A stretch of 40,501 bases of DNA from Deltaproteobacteria bacterium. Lineage in GTDB: Bacteria; UBA10199; SPLOWO2-01-44-7. Numbering within the stretch: position 1 is the first letter of the stretch; each line of letters begins with the position of its first letter. The position numbers and the translations under genes are program-made. Under the pieces are notes generated by a model that made no database searches, had not been told where the DNA came from, and worked only from the letters and a program-made list of their open reading frames with translations. Shown piece by piece: positions 7,846-32,454 of the stretch. Location: assembly GCA_016213065.1 (NCBI GenBank), contig JACRBV010000059.1:1-40501 (forward strand), read 5' to 3'.

Positions 7846-8317
7846 AAAAAATCTGCCACTTTTGGGCTAAGCTTGATAGCATTGCCCCTATTTCTGCATA
7901 TTTCCCCGTTAATTTAGTGTATTTGTCCTCTTCAATATAATTAAACTTCATTCCAAATTCCAACCATATCTTCATTTCTTCACAGGAACCGAGGCAATCA
8001 ACAAGATGGCGTTTGAATATTTTTTCGTGTCTTCTTTTAGCCCATCCTTCTGCCAAATTTGCAGGAATGGAACGAGAGGCCCTTCGCATTTGATCAACGA
8101 GAGAATAGCGTTCTTCTTCCGGGAATGTTGTCGTGATTTGATAGATTTCCAAGGCTAGATGAAATGATTGTTGATAGACATTGAGATCACGATAAGTCTT
8201 GATCGGTTTTTTTTCAAATTTTGTCACCTCTCTGCCTCTCTGTTTCTCTGCCTCTTCTCTGCTTCTCTGCATCTTTGCCTCTCTGCATCCCTGCCTCTCC
8301 GCCTCTCTGTCTCTCAT
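7844..8317 (-). CDS. Four-helix-bundle protein (23S rRNA intervening-sequence / S23 family)
   Basis: 157 residues if it starts at the ATG overlapping the gatA stop (ATGA). The family domain begins near residue 38 with [20 protein letters not shown]. It continues with the hallmark [20 protein letters not shown] and [10 protein letters not shown], and two further helices to the end. Such proteins form pentameric helical barrels and are often encoded in 23S rRNA intervening sequences or beside diversity-generating elements; their cellular role is poorly known. Residues 1-33 (rich in R, E, K, Q) are encoded wholly by the octamer repeat. The real start could therefore be a later GTG near residue 31. 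The gene is embedded in the gatCAB operon and flanked by inverted arrays, which suggests it arrived as a unit. Confidence 0.85.
8225..8316. repeat. CTCTCTGC octamer array (N-terminus of the IVP gene)
   Basis: G residues recur every 8 bp, with one 11-bp interval, through about 88 bp of CTCTCTGC-like units. On the minus strand the array is open and encodes the R/E/Q-rich N-terminus of the IVP protein. It ends exactly at the gatA stop codon. Confidence 0.85.
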
Positions 8318-18110: not shown

Positions 18111-19355
18111 ATGAAAATCACCGGAATTAAGGGGATGAGCGATTTGTTGCCGCCGGAGTCGGAGAGTTGGCAGAAGGTGGAAGCTTTCGCCCGCAAGATT
18201 TTTGCCACGTATGGTTTCAAGGAAATTCGCACACCTGTTGTAGAACCCACCGAATTATTTGTCCGCAGTGTTGGCGAAACTTCCGCCATTGTCGAAAAAG
18301 AGATGTACACATTTGAAGACCGCAAAGGCATATCTTTAACACTTCGCCCGGAAGGAACCGCTCCCGTGGTGCGCGCTTACATCGAAGCGGGGCTTCATGC
18401 CAAAGAATCCATTGCCAAACTCAGTTATTTTGGGGCTATGTTTCGTTACGAACAGCCTCAGAAGGGACGCTCCCGTCAATTCTACCAAATCGGTGCCGAG
18501 CTAATCGGTGCGGAATCCCCATTAGCCGATGCCGAGCTTTTGATGATGCTCCAACAATTGTTTACAAGTCTGAAAATCGAAGACACCCGTCTTGAAATCA
18601 ATTCCATCGGTTGTTTTGAATGTCGTCCAAGATATCTGGAAGCCTTGAATCAATTTCTGAAAGGGAAATCGCTCAAACTCTGCGAAGAATGCAAAAAGAG
18701 AATCGCGCGAAATCCTTTGCGCGTGCTGGACTGCAAAAAAGAGGCGTGCCGAAAAATGACGGAAGACATTCCTTTGATGAATGATTTTTGGTGCGAACCT
18801 TGTCATCAACATTATCGTGAAGTGCGCGGACTTTTGTTGGCAGGGCATGTGAAGTTTAAGGAAAACCCGCGCATTGTGCGCGGACTCGATTATTATTGTC
18901 GCACCGCTTTTGAAGTTTTGTGTGACCGCTTGGGTGCGCAGAATGCGGTGGCGGCGGGGGGGCGTTATGATGGTCTGGTCAAAGATTTGGGCGGTCCCGA
19001 TATTCCCGGAGTTGGTTTTGCGATTGGAATGGAAAGGTTGATGCTTATTCAGCAATCAGCTGTCAGCGATCAGCGGTCAGCCGAAAAACTGATTTATTTT
19101 GCGTTACTTGGCAATGAGGCCCAGCAGAAATCATTGTCTCTGATTCAGGAATTGAGGGCCAAAGGATTGGTCGTAGAATGCTCTTATGGAGGTTCGCTCA
19201 AAAGTCAAATGCGGCGTGCCGATAAACTGGTGGCACAGCACGTTGTGATTCTTGGAGAAAATGAATTGGCTAAAGGGATTGCCGTTGTCAAAGAAATGAC
19301 AACAGGCAAACAACAAGAAGTTTTGTTGGGACGATTGGTGGAGCAACTATCATGA
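18111..19355 (+). CDS. hisS: Histidyl-tRNA synthetase with a repeat-derived linker
   Basis: 414 residues. Class II motifs are all present: motif 1 around YGFKEIRTPVVEPTELFVRS, motif 2 FRYEQPQKGRSRQFYQIGAE (near 110), the histidine-specific VRGLDYYCRTAFEV (near 260), and motif 3 VGFAIGMERLML (near 302). The C-terminal anticodon domain begins at LIYFALLGNEA (near 325) and includes the SLKSQMRRADKL motif. Between motif 3 and this domain, residues 314-324 (QQSAVSDQRSA) are encoded by five 7-bp CAGCNNT units at 19050-19084. The array thus sits exactly in the interdomain linker and keeps the frame. The enzyme charges tRNA(His). Confidence 0.96.
   Translation: MKITGIKGMSDLLPPESESWQKVEAFARKIFATYGFKEIRTPVVEPTELFVRSVGETSAIVEKEMYTFEDRKGISLTLRPEGTAPVVRAYIEAGLHAKESIAKLSYFGAMFRYEQPQKGRSRQFYQIGAELIGAESPLADAELLMMLQQLFTSLKIEDTRLEINSIGCFECRPRYLEALNQFLKGKSLKLCEECKKRIARNPLRVLDCKKEACRKMTEDIPLMNDFWCEPCHQHYREVRGLLLAGHVKFKENPRIVRGLDYYCRTAFEVLCDRLGAQNAVAAGGRYDGLVKDLGGPDIPGVGFAIGMERLMLIQQSAVSDQRSAEKLIYFALLGNEAQQKSLSLIQELRAKGLVVECSYGGSLKSQMRRADKLVAQHVVILGENELAKGIAVVKEMTTGKQQEVLLGRLVEQLS
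19050..19084 (+). repeat. CAGCNNT heptamer array inside hisS
   Basis: Five consecutive 7-bp units: CAGCAAT, CAGCTGT, CAGCGAT, CAGCGGT, CAGCCGA. It encodes 11 residues in the linker between the HisRS catalytic and anticodon domains. Confidence 0.85.
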
Positions 19356-19556: not shown

Positions 19557-21398
19557 ATGACAAATTTTGTAACTCAAAAAAAACGCACTCACAACTGTGG
19601 GGAGTTAAGCAAAAAACAGATTGGCAAAAAAGTGATGTTGATGGGGTGGTGTGATGTGCGACGCGATCATGGTGGGCTTATTTTTGTGGACTTGCGCGAC
19701 CGCTGGGGAAAAACACAGATTGTGTTTGATCCTCAACTCTCTCCCAACACACAAAGTGTGGCAAAAGAAATTCGCTCGGAATTTGTTGTCGCGGTGGAAG
19801 GGGCGGTTCGTCATCGTCCAACAGGAATGGAAAATAAAAAAATTCCGACAGGTGAAATTGAAGTCGTTGTCAAAGAATGCGCGATTTTAAATAGCTCTCC
19901 AACACCTCCATTTGAAATTTCTTCCGACACCGATGTTGCTGAAGAGGTGAGACTTCGTTACCGCTTTCTGGATTTGCGTCGTCCGGTAATGCAGAGTTTC
20001 ATGGAGCTTCGCCATCGCACAGCGCAGGTGGTACGCAATCATTTATCCAAAGAGGGTTTCATCGAAGTGGAAACACCGATGCTTACTCGCTCCACTCCTG
20101 AAGGAGCGAGAGATTATCTGGTTCCCTCCCGTGTCCATCCCGGCAGTTTCTACGCTTTGCCGCAATCACCGCAACTTTTTAAACAGATGTTGATGGTGGC
20201 GGGTCTCGATAAATATTTTCAGATTGTGAAATGTTTCCGGGACGAAGATTTGCGGGCCGACCGCCAGCCCGAATTCACTCAAGTTGATATCGAAGCCTCT
20301 TTTGTCAATCAGGGCAATGTTCTGGAAATACTGGAAGGATTGATGTCGACGATATTTAAGGAAATTTTAAAGGAAAAAATAAAAACCCCGCTCGATAAAA
20401 TTGATTTTTTTCAGGCCATGAATGAATACGGTTCGGACAAACCAGATCGTCGTATTCCATGGAAGTTGGAAGACGTCTCAGATATTTTTAAAAATTCCAA
20501 TTTCAAGATTTTTGCCGCAACCGTTGCATCTGGAAATGTGGTCAAGGCCCTCAAGGTGACACCCGCGGAAAAGCTGTCGCGCAAAGATTTTGAAACGCTG
20601 GAGCAGGAGGCCAAAGGACATGGGGCAAAAGGATTGGGATGGGCGAAACTAACTACTGAAGGATGGCCCCACCACCTGCGCGCAGACAACATGTCTGCTT
20701 CGCAGATAGCGCAAGTGGTGGGGTGGCAATCTCCAATCGCAAAGAATTTTTCCGAAGAAGAAAAAAAAGCGTTGATCAAACAACTCAAACTCAAAACAGG
20801 GGATGCCATTTTGTTCGTGGCTGACAAATGGAGTCTGGCCTGTCAGGTGTTGGGCAGTTTGCGCGTTTCATTGGGAAAAAAATTGAATGTCTTGGACGCT
20901 TCCCGAAACGATCTTTTTTGGGTGGTCGATTTTCCGCTCTTTGACTGGAGCGAAGAAGATAAAAGATTTGTCGCGGTCCATCATCCTTTTACCGCGCCTC
21001 ATGTTGAAGATTTGGAGTGGCTTAAAAAAGATCCAAAGAAAGTGCGCTCACAAGGATATGATCTTGTTATGAATGGATATGAAGTGGGTGGTGGCTCCAT
21101 CCGTATTCACAATCGTGATCTGCAATCGCGCATCTTTGAAATTTTGAATATCTCGGCGGAAGAGGCGAAACAACGTTTCGGTTTTTTACTTTCCGCTTTG
21201 GAATATGGAGCGCCCCCGCACGGAGGGTTTGCACTTGGTTTTGACAGACTCGTTATGTTGCTTTCCGGCTGTACAAATATTCGTGACGTGATCGCCTTCC
21301 CAAAAACAACCTCCGCAACATGCCTACTCACCGAAGCTCCATCTTTTGTAGATGAGGCCCAACTCAAAGAACTGCACATTATGGTCCATGGTCCGTAG
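19557..21398 (+). CDS. aspS: Aspartyl-tRNA synthetase with a palindrome-encoded insert
   Basis: 613 residues from the ATG at 19557; a start at 19533 would read the AT-rich repeat. The N-terminal OB-fold anticodon domain has [20 protein letters not shown]. Class II motif 2 is [20 protein letters not shown] (near 225). A bacterial GAD insertion domain runs roughly 290-420. Motif 3 is [19 protein letters not shown] (near 560). Residues 371-389 ([19 protein letters not shown]) are encoded by a 57-bp palindrome lying in the GAD domain, between LTTEGW and QSPIAK. The last residues MVHGP and the stop come from the GTCCATR array. With GatCAB in the same genome, it may be a non-discriminating enzyme that also charges tRNA(Asn); that is inference. 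Confidence 0.95.
20667..20723. repeat. 57-bp palindromic element inserted in frame in aspS
   Basis: Outer arms CCCCACCACCTGCGC (20667-20681) and GCGCAAGTGGTGGGG (20709-20723) are inverted with one difference. Inner arms GCAGAC (20682-20687) and GTCTGC (20693-20698) are perfect. Length 57 is divisible by three (19 codons). GGATGG and GGGTGG lie immediately on either side, like an imperfect duplicated target. Confidence 0.9.
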
Positions 21399-21438
21399 TC
21401 CATAGTCCATAGTCCATGGTCCATGGTCCATGGTCCTT
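21380..21438. repeat. GTCCATR heptamer array at the aspS 3' end
   Basis: About eight tandem 7-bp units GTCCATA or GTCCATG. The first units encode the last residues and stop of aspS. The far end runs into the stop of the minus-strand orphan gene. It is inverted relative to the array at 24271-24306. Confidence 0.9.
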
Positions 21439-26924: not shown

Positions 26925-29900
26925 ATGTTCTCTCTCAATCCCCCTTATCCTCAATCCATCGTTGGTCTTGATTTATCCTCCGAGGCTTATTTCCTTGCGC
27001 GTTTTTTTGAAGCGTCAAGGGCAGGCCTTGCCTGCCCGCGAAGCAAACTCGCAGAGTTTGCGGAGTTTAATAGTCTTGGGAAAAGTTTTATTCGCGTCAC
27101 TTCTGATTTAAAATCAGGCATCACTCTCAAACAAAATCTGGAATTTTTTTTGGGACCCCAAAATGCGCATTCGGTTCTCTGGTTTCCTCCTCACGACTCG
27201 CTTCCCTATACCGGACTTGTCTCCGGAACCGATACGATGGCTGAAAGAATGAAAACATTGTCGACTCTTCTTTCAAAAGAGCCGCATATTCTCGTGGTCC
27301 CATGGCCTGCATTATCAAGAAAAATGATTCCGCCTTCTGTTCTGCGCCATTATCAGAGGACACTTTTTTTGGTCGACGAGGTGCATAGAGAAGAGCTGGT
27401 CTCTTGGCTCATTGATGCGGGGTATACCGAGGAAGTTGTTGTGGAGTCTCCCGGTGATTTCGCTCTGCGCGGGGCCCTGATCGATATTTTCCCTCCGCAG
27501 GAGGAATATCCGTTCCGTTTGGAGTTTGAAGGAGATTATTTAATGGGAATTCGCCAATTTGATCCGGCAACTCAAACTTCATTAAAAATAAAGGACCGTG
27601 GACCGTGGACTATGGACCATGGACCAAAGACTAAGAACCGTGATTCGCGAGTTACACTTATCCCCGCTAATGAAATTGTTTTCAATGAAGCTTCTGTGAG
27701 TCATGCCGTCAAACAAATTAAAATGTGGAGTGATGCAGAGGATCTTCCGGCAACACTTCGAAGAGAGGTCGTGGAGCGGATTGAACAAAAACGGGGCTTC
27801 GCAGGGCTAGAAACTTTTCTTCCCACCTTTTATGAGAAATCGGCAACCCTTTTTGATTATCTTGATCCCGAAACCATTTTGTTTCTCCCGGACACGGATG
27901 AGTTGAAAGATATTTACAAAAAAAATCTGGAGGAGATGAAGGGGCTTCATCAAAACACAAAAAGTCTGGAAAAAATTGTGCCGCCCGAGGAGTTGTTAAA
28001 CTCTTTTGAAAAGTTGGAGGAAGAAAGAAAAAAATATTCCACCATTTTTATCAATCCGCTTTTTACCGCTCAAGGAAAAGAGCCTCACCGAGTGCGTATA
28101 GAAAATTCTCTTCATCTCAAAAACCAATGGAGTTTTGACAAGCTTAAAGAGTGGCAGAAATTAAATTTTAAAATCCGTCTTGTCTGTCACACACCGATTC
28201 AAGCCGAACGATTACAGGATCTGCTTCGAAGCCATGGTATTTCAGGGATTCCGGTTGAAGTGGGTTCTTTATCTTACGGTTTTGAATGGCCCGATGAAGG
28301 ACTTATTGTTTTGACGGAAGAGGAAATTTTTGGTCACAAAATGGTTCGTCGGACAAAATCGTCAAAAGAAAATCTTCCGTTTGTATCTTTTCAAGAGCTT
28401 AATGCCGGCGATGTTTTGGTTCATGAAGAACAGGGTGTTTGCCGTTATCAGGGACTCGTGCATTTGAAAATTCACAAAGAGGTTGGAGATTTTCTGCATC
28501 TTGAATTTTTCGGTGGGGATAAATTGTATCTTCCCATTTACCGACTCAACGCCGTGCAACGCTACATCGGCGGTTCCACGCCGCATCTGGATAAACTGGG
28601 AGGAGTGCGTTGGCAGCAGATTAAAAAGAAGGCGGGCATTCAGATCGAAAAAATCGCCTCGGAGTTGCTCAAAATTCATGCCCAGCGGGAATTGCATCCG
28701 GGTTTGAGTTTCCCGTCCCCGGATACTCTCGACGAAGAATTCGCCGCGCAATTTCCTTTCGATGAAACTCCCGATCAGGCAAAAGCCATCGCGGATGTAT
28801 TGCGAGATATGCAAAATCCAAAACCCATGGACCGCCTGATTTGCGGCGATGTGGGCTATGGAAAAACGGAGGTGGCGATGCGGGCCACCTTCAAAGCGGT
28901 CAATGCCGGCAAACAAGTTGTCTTTTTGGTGCCGACAACTATTCTGGCGCTTCAACATTTTGAAACATTTCAGGAACGCTTTTCCAAATTTAGTGTTTCG
29001 GTAGAGATGCTTTCAAGATTTCGCTCCCGCGCGGAACAAAAACAAACGCTGAACAATCTGGCCGAAGGCAAAGTGGATATTGTTATCGGCACACACCGCC
29101 TTTTGGGAAAAGATGTGAAGATAAAAAATCTGGGGCTTTTGATTATTGATGAAGAGCATCGTTTTGGAGTCAAACATAAAGAAAGAATTAAGAATCTCCG
29201 TCCCACGGTGGATGTGGTGAATCTCTCCGCAACACCAATTCCCAGAACGCTTCACATGTCTCTAATCGGTCTCAAAGATTTGAGTATCATTCACACGCCG
29301 CCCGTGGATCGCCTTGCCATCCGCACCTTTGTGGCACGGTGGGATGATGCGGTGGTTCGTTACGCCGTGGAACAGGAACTCGCGCGTGGGGGACATGTCT
29401 TTTTTGTTCATAACCGTGTTGCCACCATTGAAGGGATGCGCAAAAGATTGTCGGGTCTTTTTCCCAACGCCTCCATTGCCGTGGCTCATGGTCAGATGGA
29501 TGAAGAGGAACTTGAAAAGGTCATGATCTCCTTCCTACACCAAAAAACACAGATTCTCCTGACCACCACCATTATTGAATCGGGGATTGATGTGCCGACG
29601 GCAAACACCATGATTATCAATCGCGCCGATACGTTTGGGTTGGCGCAGTTGTATCAGCTGAGAGGGAGAGTGGGTCGCTCCGATGTTCAGGCATTCTGTT
29701 ATCTTTTGGTCCCCGATGAAGAAATGGTGACGAAAAATGCAAGACAACGTCTCAATGCGCTGACCCGCTACACCGAGTTGGGTGCTGGTTTTCAGATTGC
29801 TTCGCATGATTTGGAAATTCGCGGATCGGGAAATCTTTTGGGGGCGGATCAATCCGGTTTCGTGGAAGAAATCGGCTATGAGCTTTATACAAAATTACTC

Positions 29901-30362
29901 GCAAGAACGATTCGAAAATTAAAGGGTGAAAAACTTGATGAGGAGATCGATCCTGAAATTCAACTCGGGAGTCCGGCATTTATTCCGGAAGAATATATCG
30001 CCGGTGCCTCTTTGAGAATGGAACTTTACAAACGCATATCGCATTTGGCGGATGAAGAAGCGATTCAATCTTTTCGACAAGAGCTTGTGGACCGCTTCGG
30101 CCCTTTTCCCGCGCCCGTGGAAAGTCTGCTTGAAGTTATTGCCCTCAAACAATTGGCGATTCAGCTCTCTCTGAAATCACTGAAATTCGATGGCGAGCGT
30201 TTTTCTCTGGTTTGGGATTCCTCCACTTCGGTTTCTCCCGCAAAACTGGTGGCGTTGGCTCAAAAAAATCCGGCACGATATCAATTAAAACCCTCGGGAC
30301 TTTTTCTCGTGAAAGTCCCGTTGGAAGAAGCGAAAAAGGCATTGAGGGCGCTGGCTGAATAG
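26925..30362 (+). CDS. mfd: Mfd, transcription-repair coupling factor, with two repeat-encoded inserts
   Basis: 1145 residues, family length. Mfd removes RNA polymerase stalled at lesions and recruits UvrA. The N-terminal UvrB-homology part has GALIDIFPPQEEYPFRLEFE (near 185). The RNA-polymerase-interacting CarD-like domain begins at AGDVLVHEEQGVCRYQGLV (near 490). The RecG-like translocase has Walker A GDVGYGKTE (near 642) and DEEHRFG (near 742). It also has LSATPIPRTLH and QLRGRVGRS, and the TRCF C-terminal domain ends the protein. Residues about 31-50 are encoded by two hairpins (27019-27061). Residues about 223-240 (DRGPWTMDHGPKTKNRD) are encoded by a heptamer array (27591-27645). Neither segment belongs to the normal family sequence. 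Confidence 0.96.
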   Translation: MFSLNPPYPQSIVGLDLSSEAYFLARFFEASRAGLACPRSKLAEFAEFNSLGKSFIRVTSDLKSGITLKQNLEFFLGPQNAHSVLWFPPHDSLPYTGLVSGTDTMAERMKTLSTLLSKEPHILVVPWPALSRKMIPPSVLRHYQRTLFLVDEVHREELVSWLIDAGYTEEVVVESPGDFALRGALIDIFPPQEEYPFRLEFEGDYLMGIRQFDPATQTSLKIKDRGPWTMDHGPKTKNRDSRVTLIPANEIVFNEASVSHAVKQIKMWSDAEDLPATLRREVVERIEQKRGFAGLETFLPTFYEKSATLFDYLDPETILFLPDTDELKDIYKKNLEEMKGLHQNTKSLEKIVPPEELLNSFEKLEEERKKYSTIFINPLFTAQGKEPHRVRIENSLHLKNQWSFDKLKEWQKLNFKIRLVCHTPIQAERLQDLLRSHGISGIPVEVGSLSYGFEWPDEGLIVLTEEEIFGHKMVRRTKSSKENLPFVSFQELNAGDVLVHEEQGVCRYQGLVHLKIHKEVGDFLHLEFFGGDKLYLPIYRLNAVQRYIGGSTPHLDKLGGVRWQQIKKKAGIQIEKIASELLKIHAQRELHPGLSFPSPDTLDEEFAAQFPFDETPDQAKAIADVLRDMQNPKPMDRLICGDVGYGKTEVAMRATFKAVNAGKQVVFLVPTTILALQHFETFQERFSKFSVSVEMLSRFRSRAEQKQTLNNLAEGKVDIVIGTHRLLGKDVKIKNLGLLIIDEEHRFGVKHKERIKNLRPTVDVVNLSATPIPRTLHMSLIGLKDLSIIHTPPVDRLAIRTFVARWDDAVVRYAVEQELARGGHVFFVHNRVATIEGMRKRLSGLFPNASIAVAHGQMDEEELEKVMISFLHQKTQILLTTTIIESGIDVPTANTMIINRADTFGLAQLYQLRGRVGRSDVQAFCYLLVPDEEMVTKNARQRLNALTRYTELGAGFQIASHDLEIRGSGNLLGADQSGFVEEIGYELYTKLLARTIRKLKGEKLDEEIDPEIQLGSPAFIPEEYIAGASLRMELYKRISHLADEEAIQSFRQELVDRFGPFPAPVESLLEVIALKQLAIQLSLKSLKFDGERFSLVWDSSTSVSPAKLVALAQKNPARYQLKPSGLFLVKVPLEEAKKALRALAE
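27019..27061. repeat. Two adjacent hairpins inside mfd
   Basis: GGGCAGGCCTTGCCTGCCC (27019-27037) and GCAAACTC/GAGTTTGC (27043-27050/27054-27061) are perfect inverted pairs within the coding frame and encode RAGLACPRSKLAEFA-like residues. Confidence 0.75.
27591..27645 (+). repeat. ATGGACN heptamer array inside mfd
   Basis: About seven 7-bp units: GACCGTG twice, GACTATG, GACCATG, then degenerate GACCAAA, GACTAAG, AACCGTG. Encodes residues about 223-240 of Mfd, placed between TSLKIK and RVTLIPANEI. Confidence 0.9.
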
Positions 30363-30535
30363 ACTATGGACCATGGACTATGGACAAAGGACCTGAAAAT
30401 ATGACTATGGACAATGGACAATGGACCGTGGACCTAAAAAAAATCCGTAATGAGTCCCTGTCTATAGTCCATAGTCCATGGTCTATAGTCCATGGTCCAT
30501 TGTCTATAGTCCATGGTCCATGGTCCATGGTCCTT
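30361..30535. repeat. Inverted pair of heptamer arrays between mfd and ppiC
   Basis: ATGGACN units fill 30361-30433 and GTCCATR units fill 30464-30535, separated by about 30 bp. The two halves are complementary and could form a long cruciform. The second half supplies the ATG and preceding frame of ppiC. The first half contains the mfd stop. Confidence 0.9.
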
Positions 30536-31452: not shown

Positions 31453-32454
31453 ATGATGACAGAAGTCAGAGTACAGAAGACAGCAAACAGATGTCAGAAA
31501 ACAGAAGACAGAGGTCAGAAGCCCAGTTTTTCTGTCCTCTGTTTTTCTGTCCTCTGTCTTCTGACTTCTGACATCTGTCTCCTGCCTCTCTTCCCCTCCC
31601 CCCAACCTGCCCATGCAAAGGTCATTAACAAGGTGGTGGCTGTTGTTAATAATGATGTCATTACAGAGTATGATTTGGACAGGGCCATGGCATCGAAGGG
31701 TGTCGGTAAAAAATCACGCAGGCAGGTGCTGGAGGATTTGATTGACCAGACACTGCTCAAACAGGAAATGGAAAAGACCGACATCGAAGTAACCGATGAT
31801 GATTTAGTGCGCGCGATTGCGGGTGTTTTGGATCGCAATAAAATCAACATTGAAATTTTACGTGCCGAGCTCGCGTCCAAAGAAATTCCTTTTGAAACTT
31901 ATAAAGAACAGCTCAAACAGCAAATCAAACAGACCAAATTTATTCAGCAAAATGTGGGCTCCAATGTTTCCGTGCAAGATGCCGATGTAAGCGCCTACAA
32001 ATTTGAACGGGCGGAGGTCGTTAATCCCAGTGGAACTGTTCATATTGGTTGGATTTTTTATTCCCTAGACGACGACCATTCCGAGAAAGAAATTAAAAAA
32101 GTATTTATTAAAGCGCGGAAAGTGGCTGACAAAGCCCGTCAGAAAGGCGCCGACTTTAAAAAGATTGCCAAAGAGACCGGCGATCTGGGTGAAAAAAGTC
32201 TCAGCGATCTACCTCCGGCGATTTCTTCCGAGGTGCGTCGAATGGAAATAGGAGAGGTGAGTGATCCCATTGTATCCCCGCAAGGAGTTTATGTAGTGAA
32301 GCTGTATGAAAAAGCACTTCAAAATGTTTCGGAAAAAGAAAAAGTGGATGACATGCAGATTCGGCAGACAATTTACAATAATCGCATGGAACAGGAAATT
32401 CACAATTACGCTTTGAAACTCAGAAGGAAGGCCTTCATTGATGTCCGGGAATAG
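31453..32454 (+). CDS. surA: SurA-type periplasmic chaperone/PPIase with a repeat-encoded signal peptide
   Basis: 333 residues from the ATG at 31453; a GTG at 31435 overlapping the ppiC stop is an alternative. Mature sequence begins near AKVINKVVAVVNNDVITEYD, the typical SurA N-domain start. A single parvulin domain follows (about 195-285; VHIGWIFYS, LSDLPPAISSEVRRMEIGEV, GVYVVKLYEK). The signal peptide consists of a basic hydrophilic part (KTEDRGQKPS-like) and a hydrophobic part FSVLCFSVLCLLTSDICLLP, ending PSPQPAHA. Both are encoded by complementary CAGANNN / CTGTNNN heptamer arrays (31459-31590). SurA escorts outer-membrane proteins. It lies between ppiC and pdxA; the surA-pdxA order is common in proteobacteria. 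Confidence 0.9.
   Translation: MMTEVRVQKTANRCQKTEDRGQKPSFSVLCFSVLCLLTSDICLLPLFPSPQPAHAKVINKVVAVVNNDVITEYDLDRAMASKGVGKKSRRQVLEDLIDQTLLKQEMEKTDIEVTDDDLVRAIAGVLDRNKINIEILRAELASKEIPFETYKEQLKQQIKQTKFIQQNVGSNVSVQDADVSAYKFERAEVVNPSGTVHIGWIFYSLDDDHSEKEIKKVFIKARKVADKARQKGADFKKIAKETGDLGEKSLSDLPPAISSEVRRMEIGEVSDPIVSPQGVYVVKLYEKALQNVSEKEKVDDMQIRQTIYNNRMEQEIHNYALKLRRKAFIDVRE
31459..31590. repeat. Inverted CAGANNN / CTGTNNN heptamer arrays forming the surA 5' end
   Basis: Nine 7-bp units starting CAGA or CAGC (CAGAAGT, CAGAGTA, CAGAAGA, CAGCAAA, CAGATGT and so on). The complementary units follow (CTGTCCT, CTGTTTT, CTGTCTT, CTGACTT, CTGACAT). The two halves can pair. Both remain open in the surA frame. Confidence 0.9.

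Follow-up and report, generated by a model that had tools for sequence, protein, structure and literature searches.

Heptanucleotide repeat DNA occupies the same interdomain linker of histidyl-tRNA synthetase in six related bacterial genomes, with a different heptamer in each

How does a tandem heptanucleotide repeat come to lie within the gene for histidyl-tRNA synthetase (HisRS), and why does it fall between the two domains of the enzyme? The question is raised by a stretch of 40,501 nucleotides of a deltaproteobacterial genome (contig JACRBV010000059.1; the genome is called G000 here), referred to as the window, the features of which are collected in Table 1. The hisS product carries both the HisRS catalytic core (Pfam tRNA-synt_His, residues 8-310) and an anticodon-binding domain (HGTP_anticodon, 333-413), and matches E. 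coli HisRS (1kmm) with E=3e-109. The array within the gene consists of five TCAGC cores separated by four 2-bp spacers (AA, TG, GA, and GG) or, read as units, of CAGCAAT, CAGCTGT, CAGCGAT, and CAGCGGT, followed by CAGCCGA. An earlier note on this DNA had described five exact 7-bp units at 19050-19084: the 7-bp periodicity and the place in hisS were right, but only four units are exact CAGCNNT, the fifth keeping CAGC alone, and the extent is better given as in Table 1. With at least three 7-bp units head to tail, the array belongs to the bacterial heptanucleotide tandem repeats. The two-unit pattern CAGCNNTCAGCNNT has three matches in the window, all in the hisS array, compared to 0.05 expected from dinucleotide shuffling; three matches were not reached in any of 100 such shuffles. 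Genome-wide in G000, the three-unit CAGCNNT pattern has many dispersed copies (49 matches vs. 6 for a reversed control).

Table 1. Arrays and the hisS gene in the window (positions in the window; protein names of the two opposed arrays by sequence reading)
Feature	Position	Strand	Basis or remark
hisS, histidyl-tRNA synthetase, 414 aa	18111..19355	+	Pfam domains and E. coli HisRS match
Heptamer array, 33 bp, codes for QQSAVSDQRSA (HisRS residues 314-324)	19049..19081	+	
ATGGTCC array over the aspS 3' end and the next gap	21381..21436	+	
GGAC(C/T)(G/A)T array in mfd, residues 223-237	27593..27634	+	
Periodic array of about 8 bp, N-terminus of a short helical-looking protein	8227..8315		Period unlike that of the other arrays
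Opposed GGAC/GTCC arrays	30359..30533		Encode N-terminus and signal-peptide-like stretch of a peptidyl-prolyl isomerase-like protein
Opposed GACAGAA/TTCTGTC arrays	31458..31588		Encode signal-peptide-like stretch of a SurA-like protein

The encoded residues fall between the two Pfam matches, which confirms the claimed position between the catalytic core and the anticodon-binding domain; the core element preceding the linker is presumably the one named motif 3. In an AlphaFold model built on 24 aligned sequences, a coil (316-326) lies between a helix (307-315) and a strand (327-332), and segment 318-324 is the only one with pLDDT <50. According to this model, the array encodes a predicted disordered or flexible stretch that joins the catalytic core and the anticodon domain.

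The hisS locus was compared in G000, in 29 of 55 matching relatives, and in 80 named genomes. Five of the relatives form, together with G000, the family considered here (G000-G005), within which HisRS identity is 68-78%. The linker has a lag-7 score of at least 9 in all six family genomes, in each case the best of the gene, and in none of the 104 other loci, where the maximum is 5.5. Of the lags from 4 to 15, the family linkers attain 9 at 7 and 14 only. Each family genome is a draft in some 20 to 180 contigs, which might point to an assembly artefact; however, there are six separate assemblies with frames open throughout, the other loci are empty, and unrelated lags are silent, so that an artefact, or chance codon usage, is practically negligible as an explanation. 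The linker heptamers are CAGCNNT in G000, GGACCGT in G001, CGGACAT in G002, CGAACCC in G003, GATTCAC in G004, and CAGGTAC in G005; G004 and G005 share a genus yet differ. There is no evident common motif among the six peptides and no consensus among the six heptamers. Given different heptamers at one site, inheritance therefore concerns the site and its rough length, and not the actual residues or DNA of the linker.

The array had initially been regarded as an insertion at the safest place. Measured from the L of GMERL to the F of FALL, the linker comprises 19 aa in G000, which is also the commonest length outside the family (10 of 24 relatives examined); it ranges from 16 to 20 aa within the family and from 15 to 23 aa across all 104 non-family loci (24 relatives and 80 named genomes), and in a pairwise alignment with the HisRS of the window, the E. 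coli linker is slightly longer, if anything. Because the linker is as long as in array-free relatives, the hisS array is not an insertion, and simple insertion into hisS can be ruled out. Nor do relatives without repeat-like DNA have a linker of the same residues: family linkers have other residues and other heptamers, and non-family linkers have other residues and non-repeat DNA at similar length.

The hisS pattern, i.e., the same site with another heptamer or on the other strand, is repeated in DnaG, Mfd, CarB, an M16 peptidase, and PBP1a. All sites were picked for having an array in G000, which was therefore left out of the tallies of relatives. In these, arrays occur in 15 of 32 site-genome pairs: hisS (5/5), dnaG (4/5), mfd (2/4), PBP1a (1/5), M16 (1/4), CarB site 1 (1/5), and CarB site 2 (1/4). 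Non-family genomes of the same class have an array at the remaining six sites in 0 of 37 cases, two of which are short alignments. With G000 included, the DnaG linker has an array in five of six family genomes and in none of 6 outgroups, Mfd in three of five (outgroups 0/8), the M16 peptidase in two of five (0/8), and PBP1a in two of six (0/7); CarB site 1 has arrays in G000 and G001, and the array at CarB site 2 is of the GGACC family in both G000 and G005 but lies on opposite strands in the two. G001 was left out of the Mfd and M16 comparisons and G043 out of that of PBP1a (fragments only); at CarB site 2, G002 was left out, its match ending there, and the short-aligned G009 and G019 are counted among the four outgroups.

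Most of these sites are neutral in length as well. The compared segments within the family measure 62 and 62 aa with an array vs. 62, 62, and 61 aa without one in M16, 57 and 54 vs. 57, 56, 56, and 58 aa at CarB site 1, and 57 and 59 vs. 57, 57, and 57 aa at CarB site 2. The Mfd loop homologous to that of the window is occupied by arrays of CGGACAT in G002 and of AGGACCA in G005 but is free of them in G003 and G004; here, segments with an array measure 65, 56, and 57 aa vs. 51 and 50 aa without, a gain of 5-14 aa, and some arrays therefore do insert. Length is thus neutral at hisS, M16, and both CarB sites and raised at Mfd, the one counter-example among these in which the idea of insertion holds. 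Among three RHS paralogues of G003 that align well on both sides, one has a TGGAAC(A/T) array in the place of a shorter stretch without repeats in the other two, a net difference of +15 nt. RHS-type genes also form a cluster in the same genome (L160, G003:C3:1-20000), where GAACTTN-type arrays are numerous, nine of them in one frame of 3357 aa.

Site sharing is also seen between genes. In G003 and G005, the gap homologous to that at the aspS 3' end holds 7-bp arrays of other kinds, and in 148 homologous gaps of family genome pairs, arrays coincide above expectation (odds ratio 4.3, P=0.0046), in a test whose pairs are non-independent, for which some G000 contigs were chosen for their CAGC arrays, and in which hisS is one of 11 shared gaps. 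Such sharing might reflect vertical inheritance of an ancestral array at each site, with heptamers that diverged by point mutation and homogenization of units. Occupancy of 6/6 at hisS and 5/6 at dnaG, compared to a chance of about 2e-9 for a given site, fits this explanation; the chance figure is crude, as it assumes 15% permissive sequence and uses the sampled densities, which are too low for G002 with its short arrays. However, G004 and G005 differ at hisS in spite of their common genus (GATTCAC vs. CAGGTAC), and gradual change would hardly yield the GGACC family on opposite strands at CarB site 2. Vertical inheritance of the arrays themselves is therefore unlikely in our judgement; an inherited site with a rewritten sequence is possible and forms part of the best explanation.

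Exact heptamer dimers were counted in twelve whole genomes (CAGCNNT in G000 only). All 26 CGGACAT dimers are in G002, where they are spread over 15 loci, hisS and mfd among them; none of the eleven further genomes has any. GGACCGT occurs 26 times in G001, twice in G000, and three times in G005 (0 in G002, G003, and G004), and CAGGTAC 12 times in G005, at 5 loci, and 10 times in G003 (0 in G000, G001, G002, and G004). GATTCAC is found three times in G004 (3 loci, one of which is hisS) and three times in G003 (0 in G000, G001, G002, and G005) and, outside the family, 21 times in G026, three times in G019, and once in G031. CGAACCC is found three times in G003, always at hisS, and once each in G002 and G026; related CGAAYCC/CGAACCT units occur at dnaG. 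In five of the six genomes, the hisS heptamer has further copies in its host, with G003 excepted for the exact unit. The outgroup G026, in which dimers of its own heptamer have 21 matches, has no array at its hisS locus (L015), and abundance alone therefore does not fill the site. The reversed control CATGGACCATGGAC counts the GGACCAT family (45 in G000, 48 in G005, 4 in G001, 1 each in G004 and G011, and 0 in G002 and G003).

Lag-7 arrays were further sampled in 86-361 kb per family genome (193 kb for G000) and in 383 kb from 20 non-family genomes. G000 to G005 yielded 19, 14, 1, 33, 2, and 17 arrays, corresponding to 9.8, 13.2, 0.8, 9.1, 1.2, and 19.7 per 100 kb, and the non-family sample yielded 8 (2.1 per 100 kb). 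Lags 5, 6, and 8-11 gave 0 to 5 arrays each in the same seven samples; for G002 and G004, lag 7 is not outstanding among lags. In G000, 24 of 40 TGGAC arrays have 5 cores, and the 22 TCAGC arrays include 12 with 4 cores and 6 with 5. AAAAATC-type arrays mostly have 3 units, so that a rule of 4-5 units is not general. Variation among units of the G000 CAGC arrays concentrates at positions 5 and 6, as seen in a scan that used a consensus and counted near-palindromic arrays, e.g., GGACCAT, on both strands; random point-mutation decay as the sole source of this variation was rejected on these grounds.

These distributions bear on the possibility that each site invents its own heptamer, by slippage or by templated mutation with a 7-nt step (e.g., through polymerase contacts). 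Indeed, the unit length stays 7 across all sites, irrespective of sequence, the hisS heptamer of G003 occurs at hisS only, and a polymerase-footprint basis for heptamers is proposed in the accessible parts of two studies (PMC4692102; PMC4679880). However, local slippage would cover the constant 7-bp unit and not the genome-wide families: five of the six hisS heptamers also occur elsewhere in the host, often at many loci, and are mostly rare or absent in relatives, and the unit number is narrow, with 4-5 in the main families. We thus regard a purely local origin as rather doubtful.

From the position of the hisS array, the earlier note had concluded that selection removes arrays which hit structured regions. 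Six samples contain 132 lag-7 arrays, 90 of them within an open frame of at least 150 aa; in the G000 stretches, where the coding fraction is 0.86, 25 of 65 arrays lie wholly inside a called gene. For a comparison with domains, 17 arrays from 16 Pfam-annotated proteins were used, RHS genes and protein ends being excluded and three proteins dropped (L197 and L124, no Pfam hit; L202, short C-terminal hit only). Five of the 17 arrays lie inside a Pfam domain, compared to 10.8 expected (P=0.0019). For Pfam families that match in several stretches, the best stretch was used except in the rescanned M16 and PurL, and domain coverage is understated because only the best stretch was counted per two-stretch family. 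Depletion in Pfam domains implies that arrays in structured regions appear to be removed or avoided, which supports the idea of selection in a weaker form: the rule is not absolute, given the five in-domain arrays in M16, PBP1a, CarB site 2 (two genomes), and GltX.

Many of the intergenic CAGC arrays begin with A5-7GCNN, a conserved A-rich flank, and they form opposed pairs with the CAGC arm first and a spacer of a few to about 360 bases. Examples between genes are L131 12552-12706, L133 14203-14289, L135 1457-1535, and L136 9540-9630, with the order A5-7GC, heptad arm, spacer (often TGTGAAA(T/C)GATT-like), opposed arm, and T-run; this arrangement is reminiscent of hairpins or bidirectional terminators. 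A terminator-like preference for convergent genes was considered and rejected, since non-genic arrays show neither a gene-orientation bias nor an excess at convergent genes (P=0.34). More generally, selection might retain the repeat at the linker for a function of its DNA, RNA, or peptide, as complete hisS occupancy in the family and the conserved flanks and inverted pairs between genes could suggest. However, the hisS copy has neither an A-rich flank nor a partner arm, peptides and heptamers lack any evident motif or consensus, and non-genic arrays are indifferent to gene orientation, which makes a selected function very unlikely.

The resulting hypothesis, which we consider fairly probable, is that short heptad elements spread by copying within each genome and persist at places that are free in sequence yet constrained in length, the same sites being repeatedly overwritten. 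It starts from what is directly established: the array and its place, family-wide sharing of the site with different heptamers, other copies in five of six hosts, and length neutrality at most of the sites. The HisRS linker array would then be one of the copies of a heptad element dispersed in the genome, usually of 4-5 units and, in G000, with TCAGC cores and 2-bp spacers. Such elements might move within the genome mostly through replacement rather than simple insertion, and copies would last only where the protein accepts any sequence at about constant length, so that interdomain linkers, surface loops, termini, and intergenic gaps would be the tolerant places. As a compact genome has few of these, the same places would be overwritten again and again, and the HisRS and DnaG linkers of each lineage would end up with its own heptamer. 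Copying might occur via ectopic replacement, e.g., by repair synthesis with another array as the template, and a site may become more prone to rewriting once it has an array. Replacement by a heptad family carried by the host would probably account for site sharing, different heptamers, opposite strands, and lengths alike; the confinement of the exact heptamer CGAACCC to hisS in G003 speaks against a dispersed donor in that genome, and no recent pair of donor and recipient arrays was found. With low probability, a dedicated copying system may be at work, with a template that would fix both the step of 7 nt and the size of the block, about five units; it would put species-specific heptad blocks in the place of an equal length of DNA. 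If real, such a mobile element would spread through overwriting instead of insertion, with its target sites inherited and its sequence not.

Dispersed heptamer repeats are already known, while site-faithful, family-switching replacement was not found in print: the literature searched, with few subscription journals and, among others, the accessible parts of PMC8161180 and PMC9879509, yielded no case of one protein site with different heptamers in related species. According to the accessible part of one report, Geobacter metallireducens has four tandem heptanucleotides with the consensus GGACCGG at 49 places between and within genes, and another class of five tandem MTYCTGA units in opposed pairs (PMC2700814). 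These units resemble GGACC(G/A)T of G001/G000 and TTCTGAC of the window, the latter, at 31458-31588, being similar to the class 3 consensus MTYCTGA. The hisS array, with its CAGCNNT units and five cores, differs from the four GGACCGG units of the Geobacter H4 element, to which GGACCNT arrays elsewhere in G000 are similar, not identical. Regulator sites or regulatory RNA were proposed for the Geobacter elements, and a cross-species comparison of one protein site is not described in that part of the report (PMC2700814). The GGGNATC/GGGGAYT repeats of Xanthomonas and Nostoc are likewise dispersed heptamers, with a preferred unit number of four, and most of them have the same flanking genes in two related species (PMC4692102, accessible part). 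In contrast to the arrays considered here, they are mainly intergenic (intragenic 7-11% in two xanthomonads), G-quadruplex forming, and of one family across the compared species, and the hisS array lacks their G-tract consensus. TAACTGA repeats of marine Beggiatoaceae form heptamer arrays in ORFs, which were argued to survive at the protein periphery or between modules; they differ in being one mostly intergenic family, and the accessible text does not describe a shared site with a different heptamer (PMC4679880). A TAACTGN-type array resembling them was observed in the same-class genome G007 (L138 13414-13447). Tandem repeats of Borg elements lie in genes and encode disordered stretches, like the hisS array, but vary in unit length and number, at loci rarely conserved among relatives (PMC9879509, accessible part).

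One linker with repeat DNA in all six examined family species, and a different heptamer in each, is a natural experiment in which the past of the site can be told apart from that of the letters written there. It suggests that a small number of tolerant spots in genes are overwritten with repeat DNA time after time. Array sites may thereby serve as a readout of the parts of essential enzymes that accept any sequence, with the warning that linkers overwritten by heptamers carry no phylogenetic signal. The pattern also bears on the preference of bacterial genomes for 7-bp repeats and on the way in which these spread. Palindromic elements of Rickettsia are another case of repeats tolerated in frame in proteins, as insertions that add tens of residues. 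While those elements add length, heptamer arrays here mostly leave it unchanged: no length is added at hisS, the Mfd array being the exception, and sites of the hisS type show replacement with little length change.
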